Shown one piece after another: positions 3 to 25,867 of a DNA stretch of 25,867 nt (the first letter of the stretch is position 1; every line of letters starts with the position of its first letter). The notes beneath the pieces are model-generated. The model was not told the DNA's origin. It did no database searches and saw only the letters and a program-made list of their open reading frames with translations. Source of the DNA: a virus; IMG/VR virus record IMGVR_UViG_3300025646_000321, positions 1-25,867 of that record. The stretch is one strand, 5' to 3'. Made by a program: the position numbers and the translations under genes.

Positions 3-1460
3 CTCTATCACACTGGAGGCAAGACTGGCGGATCGTATTGGCGCATCGGGGATAATGAAGATTCGCATATCTACATTGCGGAAGGTTTTGCAACGGCGGC
101 AACGATAGCTCAGGTCACAGATAAGGCTTGTTATGTCGCGTACTCTGCATCAAATATTCCTACCGTAACTGGCCTGCTGAGGGATCGTTACGGCCCGTCA
201 AAGCGCATCATCATCGTCGCCGATAACGACGCGAACGGCGTTGGTAAAAACTATGCCGACCAAGCATCGGCTAAGTTTGGTGCGACTGTCATCATCCCTC
301 CTGTAGATGGCATGGATGCGAATGACTATTTGTTGGCTGGAAACGATCTCTCAGCCCTCCTAGAGCCGCCTGAGCAAACGTTTGACTGGTTGCTCGATGG
401 TAACGACTTCCGCAACTCTCCCGCGCCTATATCGTGGCTAATCAAGGGCTGGATGCAGAACAATAGTTTAATGATGGTTCACGGGCCATCTGGATCAGGC
501 AAAACATTCTTGATGCTCGACTGGTGCCTGCGCCTGGCCGCAGTTGATATGGAGAATCGTGACTGGTGCGGACATAGGACTAAGCAAACGCCAGTGGCTT
601 ATCTGGCCGGTGAAGGGCATCACGGATTGCGAGGACGTATCGCCGCATGGCTCCAGCATCATGATGTAGACAGTATACAGATGTGGATATCTAAAAGCGG
701 CACTGATCTAAATACTCACGAAGGCCTTGTAAAGGTAATTGAGAATATCAGAGCTTTGCCAGTTAGCCCGAAGGTTATCGTTGTAGACACATTGCACCGA
801 TTTTTACTTGGCGATGAGAACTCAGCGCAAGATGCCAAGACGATGCTCGATTCGTGCGCCGTGCTAATGGAAGAGTTCGACTGTACTGTTATCTTGGTGC
901 ATCACACTGGCGTATCTGAAGAGGCACAGCACAGGGCCAGGGGATCAAGCGCCTGGCGCGGGGCATTGGATATCGAAGTGAGTGTGAAGCCAGGTAACTC
1001 GGATCGGCCAATTGAAATTGTGCAACGCAAGATGAAAGATGCCGAGATGCAAAAATCTAAATTCTTTGATCTTAAGCCAGTCACAATCAATGGTTGGCGC
1101 GATGAGGATGATCAATTGGTGTCGAGCGTTGTGCTTGATCCGGCGAATGAGCCTATTAAAGAGAACAAGAAAAGCTCAAAGGTTTCTGAGTTCAGAAAAC
1201 GATTTGAGCGCGCTTGGCATGCATCACATCGTGAGCGAGATGCAAAAGGTCGTCCATTTGTAGATAGGAACGCAATGCTTGATTTCTTAACTGGGCCCTT
1301 CATTGGCATGTCAGAGCCAGCCGCTAAAAAGGCATTACAAAAAGATCCATCACGCATGATTGGATGCTTAATTGATGGAGAAATAATCGTGCCATTTGGC
1401 AATGGATGGTCTGCAACTGACGCGGCAATGATCTTGGATCTTGAGTCGCAATGTCGATAA
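3..1460 (+). CDS. Primase-helicase, 5'-truncated (Toprim + RepA-like ATPase)
   Basis: The frame is open from the left edge to the stop, so this is the 3' part (485 codons) of a longer gene. Visible first is a Toprim half: an acidic residue in IAEGF (E27 of the visible part) and IIIVADNDANG with D74 and D76. A RecA-like ATPase follows: Walker A GPSGSGKT (161-168), Walker B VIVVDTLHRF (D262), the strand-sensor segment ILVHHTG, and RGSSAWRG (R313) as in RepA/AAA_25 hexameric helicases. The ATG at 312 lies between the two domains in an uninterrupted frame, so I treat it as internal. A catalytic primase or zinc-binding part probably lies upstream, outside the window. It would synthesise primers and unwind phage DNA at the fork. 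The C-terminal 130 residues are not recognised and could mediate oligomerisation or DNA binding. Domain assignment is confident; the exact family is inferred from motifs. Confidence 0.88.
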   Translation, partial: LYHTGGKTGGSYWRIGDNEDSHIYIAEGFATAATIAQVTDKACYVAYSASNIPTVTGLLRDRYGPSKRIIIVADNDANGVGKNYADQASAKFGATVIIPPVDGMDANDYLLAGNDLSALLEPPEQTFDWLLDGNDFRNSPAPISWLIKGWMQNNSLMMVHGPSGSGKTFLMLDWCLRLAAVDMENRDWCGHRTKQTPVAYLAGEGHHGLRGRIAAWLQHHDVDSIQMWISKSGTDLNTHEGLVKVIENIRALPVSPKVIVVDTLHRFLLGDENSAQDAKTMLDSCAVLMEEFDCTVILVHHTGVSEEAQHRARGSSAWRGALDIEVSVKPGNSDRPIEIVQRKMKDAEMQKSKFFDLKPVTINGWRDEDDQLVSSVVLDPANEPIKENKKSSKVSEFRKRFERAWHASHRERDAKGRPFVDRNAMLDFLTGPFIGMSEPAAKKALQKDPSRMIGCLIDGEIIVPFGNGWSATDAAMILDLESQCR

Positions 1461-11539: not shown

Positions 11540-12117
11540 TGTACGCCAAACAGCTAGATATCAGTTTTCCAATTCCAGAGGATCGGGATAGAGAGATATT
11601 AAGCGAGCATGGAAAGCTAAAAATATCTAACAGACCAAGTTTAATTAGGCGAAATTTGTTAGAAGTTGACGATTACTTAAATCTCTTACCGCAAGTAAGA
11701 GATTTTTGTATTGATTCATCTATTAGCGACTTAAAGTTATTAAGCCCTCATTTGCATACAAAAGATAAGTCTGTTATCAACTTTTATCTAAGCACAAACA
11801 ATGAAATTACATCGTTCTGGGAGGGCAAAGATGAATTCGACGACAGATGGACAACCGATGGTGGCGACACTTATTACAACGTAAAACCTGAAAATCTTGA
11901 TGTTGTTTACAGATTCTGTGCCAAGCCCGGCGACGTATGGATACTCAATCCTCAAAAAATACATTCAGTATTGCCTGACATTCAGGCAGAAGAAAACATC
12001 AAAAAGGGCAACAAAGATAGAAGATTGATACATTACGTCAGAAAAAACACAAGAAAGATGATTCAGTTAATTTTTAATATAGAAATTGATGAAATGATAG
12101 AAAGGATTTATGCGTAA
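11539..12117 (+). CDS. Putative cupin-fold (2OG oxygenase-like) protein
   Basis: The product has 192 residues; ATG overlaps the previous TGA (TGATG), preferred over an upstream in-frame TTG at 11515. The pattern SPHLHTKDKSVINFYLSTNNEITSFWEG (69-96), VYRFCAKPGDVWILNPQKIHSV (123-144) and RRLIHYV (161-167) matches a family of small phage oxygenase-like proteins with a double-stranded beta helix. The distal metal His would be H142 and the substrate Arg R161 or R162. The expected H-x-D is here H71-L-H73, so the iron site is altered or the protein is inactive or differently metallated. It lies immediately before a gene with two 2OG-oxygenase domains. A role in small-molecule or macromolecule hydroxylation is inference. 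Confidence 0.55.
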   Translation: MYAKQLDISFPIPEDRDREILSEHGKLKISNRPSLIRRNLLEVDDYLNLLPQVRDFCIDSSISDLKLLSPHLHTKDKSVINFYLSTNNEITSFWEGKDEFDDRWTTDGGDTYYNVKPENLDVVYRFCAKPGDVWILNPQKIHSVLPDIQAEENIKKGNKDRRLIHYVRKNTRKMIQLIFNIEIDEMIERIYA

Positions 12118-13261
12118 TTTTAAGTTGGTTGAGAATGCCTTACATCCAGATAATTGTGCTTATTTAACTGATTACTTGAGAAAGCATTCTGAATCTGGAA
12201 ATTATGTTCCAGACGTTCAATGCACAATAAGCGCACCACTAGAAAATGATCCTATACTTGAAAAATTGTTAGAAGAATTTTTGCCAAAAATGGAACTAGA
12301 GACAGGCAAAAAACTTTTTCCAACATACGCATACGCTAGATATTATAAAAAAGGCGAAGTTATGCTTTGTCATACTGACAGGCCATCGTGCGAAATAAGC
12401 GCAACAATTACTCTTGGATTTGATTCTGAAGTTTGGCCTATTTTTATGGCAGATCAAGGATCTGAAACTGATCAAGGAATTATTGGCCAAAATGGAAAAA
12501 TATCCAGAATAAAAAACATTCAAAAGTTTTTAATGAATGTTGGTGATGCGGTTATATATCGAGGATGCGACGCTCCACATTGGAGAGAAGAATTTAAAGG
12601 CGAATGGCAGGCGCAAGTATTTTTACATTATGTTGACCAAGACGGCCCAAACGCAGAATGGAAGTTTGACAAAAGGAAATGTTTGTCGCACATGGATAAT
12701 AAAGATACATCAAACGATGAAATATTCTTTTGGTATGTGGACGATGCCATATCAAAAGCATCATGCGATTTGATGATAGAAAAGTTTGAGCAAACAGAAG
12801 GTTTTCAAAAAGCTCAAATTGGTGGTGTAAAAGATGGATCTGTTGATCTCAATGTTAGAGATGTCAACAAATTAGCAATTACAAATGAGATTGGCATAGG
12901 CGCAACCTTGACAGGCATTGGATTTAACATTAACCAAAGATCATGGAAATTTGATGTAACAAGGAGCAATCAGTGCGAATACTTACGTTACGATCAAAAC
13001 GGACATTACAAGACTCACGTTGACTCGTGGATTAATCCAAGTGAAAAAGAGTGCAGAAAAATAACTGTATTGGCGTTTTTAAATGATGATTTTGAAGGCG
13101 GCAAATTTTATCTACAACATGGTTCAGAAAGGATATATCCTAACCAAAGCAAAGGAACTGTTATAGCGTTTCCGAGCTTTATGAATCATGGAGTCGAGCC
13201 AGTAACGTCTGGCATAAGGCGTAGCATAGTTACATGGATTGTCGGGCCTTGGTTTAGATAA
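12110..13261 (+). CDS. Tandem 2OG-Fe(II) oxygenase, two domains in one chain
   Basis: The product has 383 residues; start overlaps the previous gene by 8 nt with AAAGGA upstream. Domain 1 (about 1-190): YARYYKKGEVMLCHTDRPSCE with H88/D90, GDAVIYRGCDAPHWREEFKGEW with H157, then QVFLHYVDQDGPN. Domain 2 (about 200-383): EYLRYDQNGHYKTHVDSW with H303/D305, LNDDFEGGKFYL, FPSFMNHGVEPV with H360, and GIRRSIVTWIVG with R370/R371. Both keep the H-x-D...H facial triad for Fe(II); the 2-oxoglutarate Arg is clear only in domain 2. The second resembles prolyl-4-hydroxylase/PKHD-type enzymes. Likely activity is hydroxylation of a protein side chain or other substrate; the substrate is unknown. It belongs to an AT-rich accessory cluster with the following desaturase. 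Confidence 0.85.
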   Translation: MRNFKLVENALHPDNCAYLTDYLRKHSESGNYVPDVQCTISAPLENDPILEKLLEEFLPKMELETGKKLFPTYAYARYYKKGEVMLCHTDRPSCEISATITLGFDSEVWPIFMADQGSETDQGIIGQNGKISRIKNIQKFLMNVGDAVIYRGCDAPHWREEFKGEWQAQVFLHYVDQDGPNAEWKFDKRKCLSHMDNKDTSNDEIFFWYVDDAISKASCDLMIEKFEQTEGFQKAQIGGVKDGSVDLNVRDVNKLAITNEIGIGATLTGIGFNINQRSWKFDVTRSNQCEYLRYDQNGHYKTHVDSWINPSEKECRKITVLAFLNDDFEGGKFYLQHGSERIYPNQSKGTVIAFPSFMNHGVEPVTSGIRRSIVTWIVGPWFR

Positions 13262-13262
13262 C

Positions 13263-13994
13263 ATGAAACAACACCATAAATTACTTATATCTCAGGCGCT
13301 CATACATCTAATTGGGATAGTAGGCATTTTTCTATATTTTGACGCTAAATTCTTATGGTTAACTGCCGCAGGAGTGTTTTTGTTTGCTCATTTGGGCATA
13401 GGAATTTATTGTCACAGATATCTAGCTCATCAATCGTTTGAAACTAGCGCTTTTGTTGAGAAAATATTAAATTTTTTATCAATTATGTGTTTGCAAGGGC
13501 CGCCAATGGTATGGGCGGCAAACCATGTTACTCACCATAAGAACGCTGATCAAGACGGAGATCCGCATCCAGCAAGCTCATGGTTAAGGACTTGGTTTTG
13601 GATAGGTACGGACAAAAACTCTGTTATATGCCAAAAGACAATAAAAAGGCTGTCAAAGGACAAAATACACAAAAACACAAATAAACACTATTACAAAATA
13701 TATTGGTCAATTATCATTATTTCTAGCTTTTTTGACTTTAAGGCGACTTTGTATTTGTTTGTTTTGCCTGTTATTTACGCATTCCATATGTCTTCATTTA
13801 CTAACGTAATACTGCATAAATTTGGATACAGAAACTTTGAAACTAACGATAAATCGATGAATTTGCCGATACCTATACTGTTAGATAGCGCATATCACAA
13901 CAATCATCACGCTATGCCTAAATCTTACAATATGGCAGTTAAATGGCACGAGTTTGATATGTTAGGTCATGTGATAGATTTAATAAGGAAGTAA
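13263..13994 (+). CDS. Acyl (fatty-acid) desaturase, membrane di-iron
   Basis: The product has 243 residues; ATG 13263 lies 1 nt after the previous TAA, preferred over an in-frame TTG at 13239 inside the upstream gene. Hydrophobic segments at about 9-25, 29-48, 66-82, 147-157 and 162-176. Three histidine boxes typical of acyl-CoA/acyl-lipid delta-9-type desaturases: HRYLAH (51-56), HVTHH (88-92) and HNNHH (212-216), plus the NVILHKFGYR element (N181, H185) that supplies further ligands. It would insert a cis double bond in an acyl chain in the host inner membrane, using O2 and an electron donor that is not encoded here. The full ligand set suggests activity. Composition is very AT-rich (about 20% GC in the line at 13681), unlike the flanking tail and portal genes, supporting acquisition. 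Such phage genes probably adjust host membrane lipids (inference). Confidence 0.88.
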   Translation: MKQHHKLLISQALIHLIGIVGIFLYFDAKFLWLTAAGVFLFAHLGIGIYCHRYLAHQSFETSAFVEKILNFLSIMCLQGPPMVWAANHVTHHKNADQDGDPHPASSWLRTWFWIGTDKNSVICQKTIKRLSKDKIHKNTNKHYYKIYWSIIIISSFFDFKATLYLFVLPVIYAFHMSSFTNVILHKFGYRNFETNDKSMNLPIPILLDSAYHNNHHAMPKSYNMAVKWHEFDMLGHVIDLIRK

Positions 13995-25511: not shown

Positions 25512-25867
25512 ATGGCACAACCAAGTAACACTTTTGACAGCTATGATGCTGTTGGTATTAGAGAGGATCTTTCTAATATCATTTATGACGTATCGCCTTT
25601 AATTCTTGGGGCCAACCTGAAGTAATTCGGGATTGATAATCGCGTGAATTTCTGGGACGCTAAGTTGGAAACAATAAGCCAATCAGAAGCCAAGCGCCGT
25701 AGGAATACGGTGAAGGTTCAGAGACTAGAGTATGGAGTCCAGAACGGACAGTAAAACTCCACGAGTGCGCGACATCCTACGGGATGAAGATATAGTCCGA
25801 TACTCCTCAGAAACGAGGAGAGCCAAAGATAAAGAGCTTTGGTGTAACAATTGGAAGATACACCTTT
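25512..25867 (+). CDS. Major capsid protein (SU10 type), intron-split, 3'-truncated
   Basis: Start ATG 25512 with GAGG 9 nt upstream. Exon 1 (25512-25598) encodes 29 residues, MAQPSNTFDSYDAVGIREDL followed by SNIIYDVSP, the conserved N-terminus of SU10-type (DUF5309-like) capsid proteins. After the Pro codon the frame would run into a TAA at 25623-25625. The proposed exon 2 (25854 to the edge) reads GAA GAT ACA CCT TT, giving SP-E-DTPF after splicing, the usual continuation in this family. The rest lies outside the window. The protein forms the icosahedral shell with the scaffold encoded just upstream. The exon join is inferred from RNA folding and frame, not measured. Confidence 0.82.
25599..25853 (+). 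ncRNA. Group I self-splicing intron in the capsid gene
   Basis: Paired elements found by eye. P1: exon GCCUU (25595-25599) with guide GGGGC (25608-25612), U-G at the splice point. P2: CCUGAA/UUCGGG (25616-25631) with GUAA loop. P3: UCGCG (25640-25644) with CGCGA (25768-25772). P4: UUCUG (25650-25654) with CAGAA (25684-25688). P5: UUGG/CCAA (25665-25682). P6: CCGUA/UACGG (25697-25710). P7: GACUA (25723-25727) with UAGUC (25793-25797). P8: CAUCC/GGAUG (25773-25786). P9: CUCCUC/GAGGAG (25803-25820). The Q-like AAUCAGAAGCCAAGC and the R and S segments (GACUAGA; AAGAUAUAGUCC) match classic group I core sequences. Intron ends with G 25853. About 255 nt, no homing-endonuclease ORF. It would excise itself from the capsid mRNA using guanosine. 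Confidence 0.93.

Follow-up and report, generated by a model that had tools for sequence, protein, structure and literature searches.

A putatively mobile, ORF-less group I intron in an SU10-type phage capsid gene, one of a family at nine sites of that gene

The capsid locus and its intron

The window, by which we mean the whole 25,867-nt stretch of DNA that was analysed, is a fragment of a virus record (IMGVR_UViG_3300025646_000321) and ends within a major capsid gene. On the plus strand, exon 1 of this gene, aligned to the intronless loci L004-L010, occupies 25512-25598 (29 codons, MAQPSNTFDSYDAVGIREDLSNIIYDVSP). It is followed at 25599-25853 by a group I intron of 255 nt, assigned on the basis of the RF00028 model, empty alleles and covariation, and at 25854-25867 by the start of exon 2 (EDTP...), which is cut by the record end and is whole in locus L003 (9700-10566). 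Elsewhere in the window, the contig start cuts a gene for a primase-helicase-like protein with Toprim and AAA_25 domains (3-1460, plus strand), and the structural gene region includes a gene for a fatty acid desaturase-like protein (13239-13994, plus strand; PF00487, 3e-15), adjoined by one for a 2OG-Fe(II) oxygenase-like protein (12110-13261; PF13640).

Because the window is cut 14 nt into exon 2, the whole capsid gene was examined in L003 instead. This locus and the other close relatives, L004-L010, come from a portal-protein scan of viral contigs; L003 has a portal protein 100% identical to that of the window, the same intron (255/255) and a complete capsid gene. Removal of exactly 255 nt from L003 leaves an uninterrupted, in-frame protein of 318 aa with SPEDTPF at the junction, which matches SU10_MCP (PF17236, E=4e-87, residues 7-314) and phrog_1328, a major head protein. 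In L004-L010, whose portal proteins are 97-99% identical to that of the window, the site is empty: the empty allele runs from ...GACGTATCTCCA directly into GAAGATACACC..., versus ...GACGTATCGCCT, 255 nt and then GAAGATACACC... in the occupied one. As these alleles differ by precisely 255 nt, the borders of the intron are exact; they conform to the group I border rule (U at the 5' exon end, here U25598, and G at the intron end, here G25853). The earlier note had placed the intron at these positions, after codon 29 of an SU10-type major capsid gene, had proposed that joining 25598 to 25854 restores the capsid frame, and had described the intron as lacking an endonuclease of its own; each of these claims stands, there being no ORF within the 255 nt and no homing endonuclease ORF in a family whose members are 250-274 nt long with stops in the reading frame.

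Both of the sequence checks that had been proposed were run. A search of the whole window with RF00028 gave a match to the full model at 25590-25820 on the plus strand, with E=8.9e-21 and a score of 85.6 bits where the cut-off is 50, and in the intronless capsid homologues exactly the 255 nt are missing, rather than being translated. The folding energy of the 255-nt stretch (z=-4.85) was equalled by none of 200 shuffles. At the level of sequence, the observation that a group I intron of 255 nt interrupts the major capsid gene of a phage is thereby confirmed. The ligated junction of CGCCT with GAAGA was looked for among viral contigs and none was found, which is neutral, because the contigs searched are DNA.

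Helices P1, P2, P3, P4, P5, P6, P7, P7.1, P7.2, P8, P9 and P9.1 are all predicted to form in the intron RNA (all positions are on the plus strand). In P1 (25595-25612), the exon bases GCCU and the first intron U (25595-25599) face the guide GGGGC (25608-25612), with a U25598.G pair at the 5' splice site, and P2 (25613-25635) carries a GUAA loop with an in-frame stop, UAA, at 25623-25625. The 5' strand of P3 (25640-25646) is partnered by 25766-25772; P4 (25650-25655/25683-25688) and P5 (25659-25661/25677-25679) lie in 25650-25688, followed by P6 and P6a (25689-25717). P7, the guanosine-binding helix, joins GACUA (25723-25727) to UAGUC (25793-25797) and is a pseudoknot on P3, which gives the conserved P3-P8 core of RF00028. 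P8 lies at 25774-25785, P9 (25803-25808/25815-25820) and P9.1 (25823-25828/25837-25842) at 25803-25842, and the omega-G is the final intron base, 25853. The region between P7 and P3' holds P7.1 and P7.2 (25733-25761), an extension typical of subgroup IA, and we take the intron to be an IA-like compact group I intron. P3, P4, P7 and P8 had been described as perfect; all four are complete, but with two G.U pairs in P3 and one in P4 the set is not wholly Watson-Crick.

The proposed structure is well kept among 27 distinct introns of the family, with 94.5% of cells retained over 73 base pairs. P7 is invariant, P7.2 is 97% kept and P7.1 only weakly so (73%), and the terminal G is present in 27/27 introns when these are delimited with U ending the exon and G ending the intron. 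Where the helices vary, the pairs covary: both sides have changed in 44 of the 73 pairs, and cells with both sides changed number 314, versus 93 in shuffles, although these are related rows whose covariation events are not independent. When one strand was slid, a control that preserves this relatedness, only 30-41% of the pairing was kept.

Each of the 27 distinct introns reaches an in-frame stop no later than its nucleotide 28, most often the UAA of the P2 loop, with insertions in all three phases; the other two frames have such a stop in 29 of 54 cases. An early in-frame stop is expected if the catalytic core must be kept free of ribosomes, as in the introns of T4.

From this arrangement we infer that the RNA is spliced in the cell. 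The guide GGGGC would pair with the GCCU that ends exon 1, a guanosine held in P7 would attack after U25598, and the released exon would in turn attack after omega-G25853, so that Pro29 is joined to Glu30 in frame. The stop in the P2 loop would halt translation of the unspliced RNA ahead of the catalytic core. If the intron works in this way, it follows, as the earlier note had suggested, that capsid output depends on splicing.

An intron family at nine sites of one gene

Scans with the intron core and with adjacent capsid exons, followed by spliced alignment, yielded a family of 35 introns (27 distinct) of 250-274 nt, all ORF-less and located at nine positions in one gene. In the codon numbering of L003, these insertion sites lie after 29.00, 54.67, 85.67, 110.33, 112.67, 115.67, 122.00, 216.33 and 246.00. 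The best solution with U ending the exon and G ending the intron restores the capsid protein in 35 of 35 introns. Six records carry two introns per gene: L142 and L114 (sites 29 and 246), L289 (216 and 246), L299 (112 and 246), L118 (85 and 115) and L213 (54 and 85). Over the 29 intron-bearing records (~503 kb), RF00028 matched 35 times; the number in every record equals that of the capsid-gene introns found there, none lies outside the capsid gene, and five close intronless relatives had no match. The records were picked for one capsid intron, second introns and absence elsewhere being no part of the selection. The ranking of one contig scan favours unsplit genes, so that no prevalence is derivable from it.

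Occupied sites differ from empty ones in the exon itself. At site 29 the exon ends in TCGCCT in 16/16 intron alleles versus 1/83 empty alleles, and at site 246 it ends in ACGCCT in 10/10 versus 14/86; the exon changes at site 29 are synonymous and match the guide GGGC. Scored in a simple way and with no formal test, the sequence 5' of the guide matches the exon 2 that follows its own intron (P10) more closely than it does the exons at other sites in 24 of the 27 introns. The sole empty site-29 allele with TCGCCT is that of L100, where it may represent a state before entry or a precise loss of the intron. The capsid ORF of an intronless close relative, L006 (9358-10314), contains GCCT once, exactly at site 246, which holds an intron in other phages and here is empty with a native GCCT.

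A gene-blind sample, collected with the core pattern and without a capsid condition, matched at least 120 contigs and gave 119 downstream reading frames, which we assigned by cluster, PHROG and Pfam. About 53 of the 119 (~45%) are capsid genes of several families, namely 16 of SU10 type (one by tblastn only), ~20 of phrog_267/283 type and ~17 others, some of them weak matches; the sample is arbitrary, biased to this core and includes near-copies (11 groups of identical fragments). About a fifth (24/119) are psbA, the highly expressed cyanophage gene for photosystem II D1 (for example L134 and L172), and the remainder include dUTPase, polymerase, terminase and endonucleases. When non-SU10 cases were tested for an upstream exon of the same capsid family, three had one confirmed, and in the remainder the upstream sequence matched an endonuclease or nothing. 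Capsid families unrelated to the SU10 type have introns with the same core inside or adjoining them in L144, L154 and L126 (phrog_27239/267), L113 and L155 (phrog_247) and L216 (phrog_10). The earlier note's view that the location is unusual is thus overstated, given the capsid share of this sample and the published capsid introns (PMC3706429, PMC7886860).

This capsid type occurs in 306 records of isolate phages, 296 of which cover at least 80% of it in one place; no split capsid gene was seen among the 60 matches listed of the 306. The nearest isolate found is a phage of Octadecabacter. The intron itself had only partial matches in isolate phages (9 records, four of them in DNA polymerase genes of Enterococcus phages). 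The site-29 pattern matched 27 times in cellular genomes, never with the capsid gene.

Movement between lineages and sites

Transfer between lineages, like the occupancy of many sites, is read here from sequence comparison. L245 carries an intron identical to that of the window (255/255) in a different capsid lineage: its exon 2 protein is 99% like that of L011 and ~83% like that of the window, and its DNA away from the site is 96-100% that of L011, so that only a short stretch around the site has changed. Intron presence is patchy among phages that are 97-99% identical. In the intron tree, whose bootstrap is not quite settled, the site-29 intron of L227 is separated from every other intron at that site and pairs with the site-54 intron of L213 at 100/100, so that site 29 was entered at least twice; L118 (site 115) groups with L183 (site 122) at 88/85. 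Over ~100-140 alignment columns the intron of L013 has a core identical to that of L142 at site 246, while its ends are site-29-like, a chimera indicating that introns of two sites have recombined. Although some close relatives thrive without the intron, we consider it highly probable that the whole is best explained by a mobile 255-nt group I intron in an SU10-type capsid gene, which has moved between related phages carrying only short flanking exon and belongs to a family settled at nine positions.

By what route it moves can be inferred only with less confidence. The mechanism that we find most credible, though still somewhat short of probable, is collaborative homing at the DNA level: an endonuclease from elsewhere, free-standing or supplied by a co-infecting phage, would cut intronless alleles, repair would copy the intron in, and new sites would be reached when the same enzyme cuts loosely related targets. 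The L245 intron, in an L011-like backbone with a short changed stretch, looks like gene conversion from a break, and there are published examples of an ORF-less intron partnered by a free-standing enzyme (reviewed in PMC3984707). Of the 30 intron-bearing records, 8 have a gene for endonuclease VII (HNH superfamily) at a distance of 1-3.5 kb downstream from the capsid gene; however, 5 of 6 close relatives that have no intron share it, and many intron carriers lack it. It is probably a gene of the lineage, which intronless sisters have too. Another point against homing by a DNA break is that the sites have no wider target in common than GCCU. HNH_3, GIY-YIG, LAGLIDADG_1 and LAGLIDADG_3 enzymes were looked for in the 30 intron-bearing records, which are fragments, and none was found; weak HNH hits in two records were NinG-like by eye and were discarded as homing endonucleases. 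In L003 the endonuclease VII-like gene lies at 11734-12132, downstream of the capsid gene, and could be a helper or an ordinary resolvase.

Alternatively, new sites may have been reached through RNA: the guide would direct the intron to reverse-splice into capsid mRNA, and a DNA copy would then be made and recombined, an account that we regard as possible but rather doubtful. Sites 29, 54, 110, 216 and 246 have in common only GCCU beside a guide (G)GGGC, and when 954 positions are ranked by how often empty alleles have GCCU natively, 54.67, 246 and 110.33 come 1st, 4th and 6th. Different sites are occupied by sister introns, as in the two pairs in the tree, and this core sits mostly in highly expressed hosts, capsid genes and psbA; both observations are consistent with the same process. 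Against it, native GCCU occurs at site 216 in no empty allele and at site 29 in ~1%. Moreover, a common GCCU is expected on every route, and the pattern is undecisive between routes because a surviving intron must match its exon. Spread by a route of this kind has never been directly shown in nature, rRNA genes being the best circumstantial case for such spread of ORF-less group I introns (PMC3984707). We tentatively entertain, as an idea that has some way to go before it is likely, that an ORF-less family is at home on the most abundant late phage mRNA and spreads within and between capsid genes by reverse splicing; if true, this would account for the nine sites, the GCCU targets, the genes with two introns and the surplus of capsid genes and psbA among hosts of this core. 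On balance, a DNA route with an outside helper seems somewhat more likely for transfer to the same site, with the RNA route possible for new sites.

It is unlikely that no special mobility is involved and that old introns, inherited with the gene, were reshuffled by ordinary homologous recombination during co-infection and repeatedly lost. Introns do cluster by site beyond chance, and chimeras such as L013 are what ordinary recombination would produce, but entry of separate lineages into site 29 at least twice, the sharing of one identical intron by two otherwise diverged capsid backbones, where the converted stretch is very short, and patchy presence among near-identical phages all argue against simple inheritance. 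Much more improbable still is retention of the intron as a regulator of capsid output, with splicing as a timing switch: it sits in the main structural gene and has an early in-frame stop throughout the family, but that stop is equally explained by a core kept free of ribosomes, the closest relatives have no intron, sisters differ in intron content, and evidence for such regulation, when considered, was not found. The notion that there is no intron at all, only an assembly error or a translated insertion, has a negligible chance, for although the window record stops just after the feature, independent contigs (L003 and L245) carry the identical intron with full flanks, which rules out an assembly artefact; the in-frame stops also count against this reading, and the empty alleles and covarying pairs refute it.

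How introns without an enzyme reach new sites is an old question that becomes easier to test here. One gene of 318 codons offers nine sites, near-identical empty alleles, sister and chimeric introns and a recent transfer, so that the routes could be separated by crosses. In addition, splits of this kind can occur in the capsid genes of environmental phages, which gene callers and capsid-marker surveys may then truncate.

Comparison with known introns

Taken alone, the intron of the window is an ordinary compact group I intron, and introns in capsid genes are already known. Mycobacteriophage LittleE has one in its major capsid gene, likewise with U ending the exon and G ending the intron, the splicing of which was confirmed by RT-PCR; it differs in its 819 bp, its LAGLIDADG-like ORF, its single site in one phage, and in the capsid gene and hosts concerned (PMC3706429). 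The tail-gene intron of BAKA (265 bp; PMC3706429) is similar in size to those described here and also needs no ORF. In crAss-like phages one capsid gene is in five fragments, and the Zeta group resembles our case in having several group I introns in a single capsid gene; these are gut phages, however, in which three of four segments encode domains typical of intron proteins, and the available part of that account contains no comparison of sites, guides and empty alleles (PMC7886860).

According to another report, phages commonly have introns of similar length without an ORF (PMC12363816). The Jug phage introns that it describes are similarly compact (~206 nt) and mostly ORF-less, with metatranscriptome reads supporting splicing for 37 of 76. 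They differ in being scattered over many genes of huge phages, among them terL, nrdD and polymerase, and in the part of the report consulted the capsid gene is not named as a host.

A nine-site family in an SU10-type capsid gene, and an excess of capsid genes among hosts, were not found in the open-licence papers searched; what is new here is the setting, that is, a nine-site ORF-less family in one capsid gene. The closest parallel comes from ORF-less introns of rDNA, where related introns also occupy different sites of one gene, have short guide targets and lack an endonuclease, and for which spread by reverse splicing has been proposed (PMC1299323). Those introns reside in fungal nuclear ribosomal RNA genes, whereas the family described here resides in a protein gene of phages.
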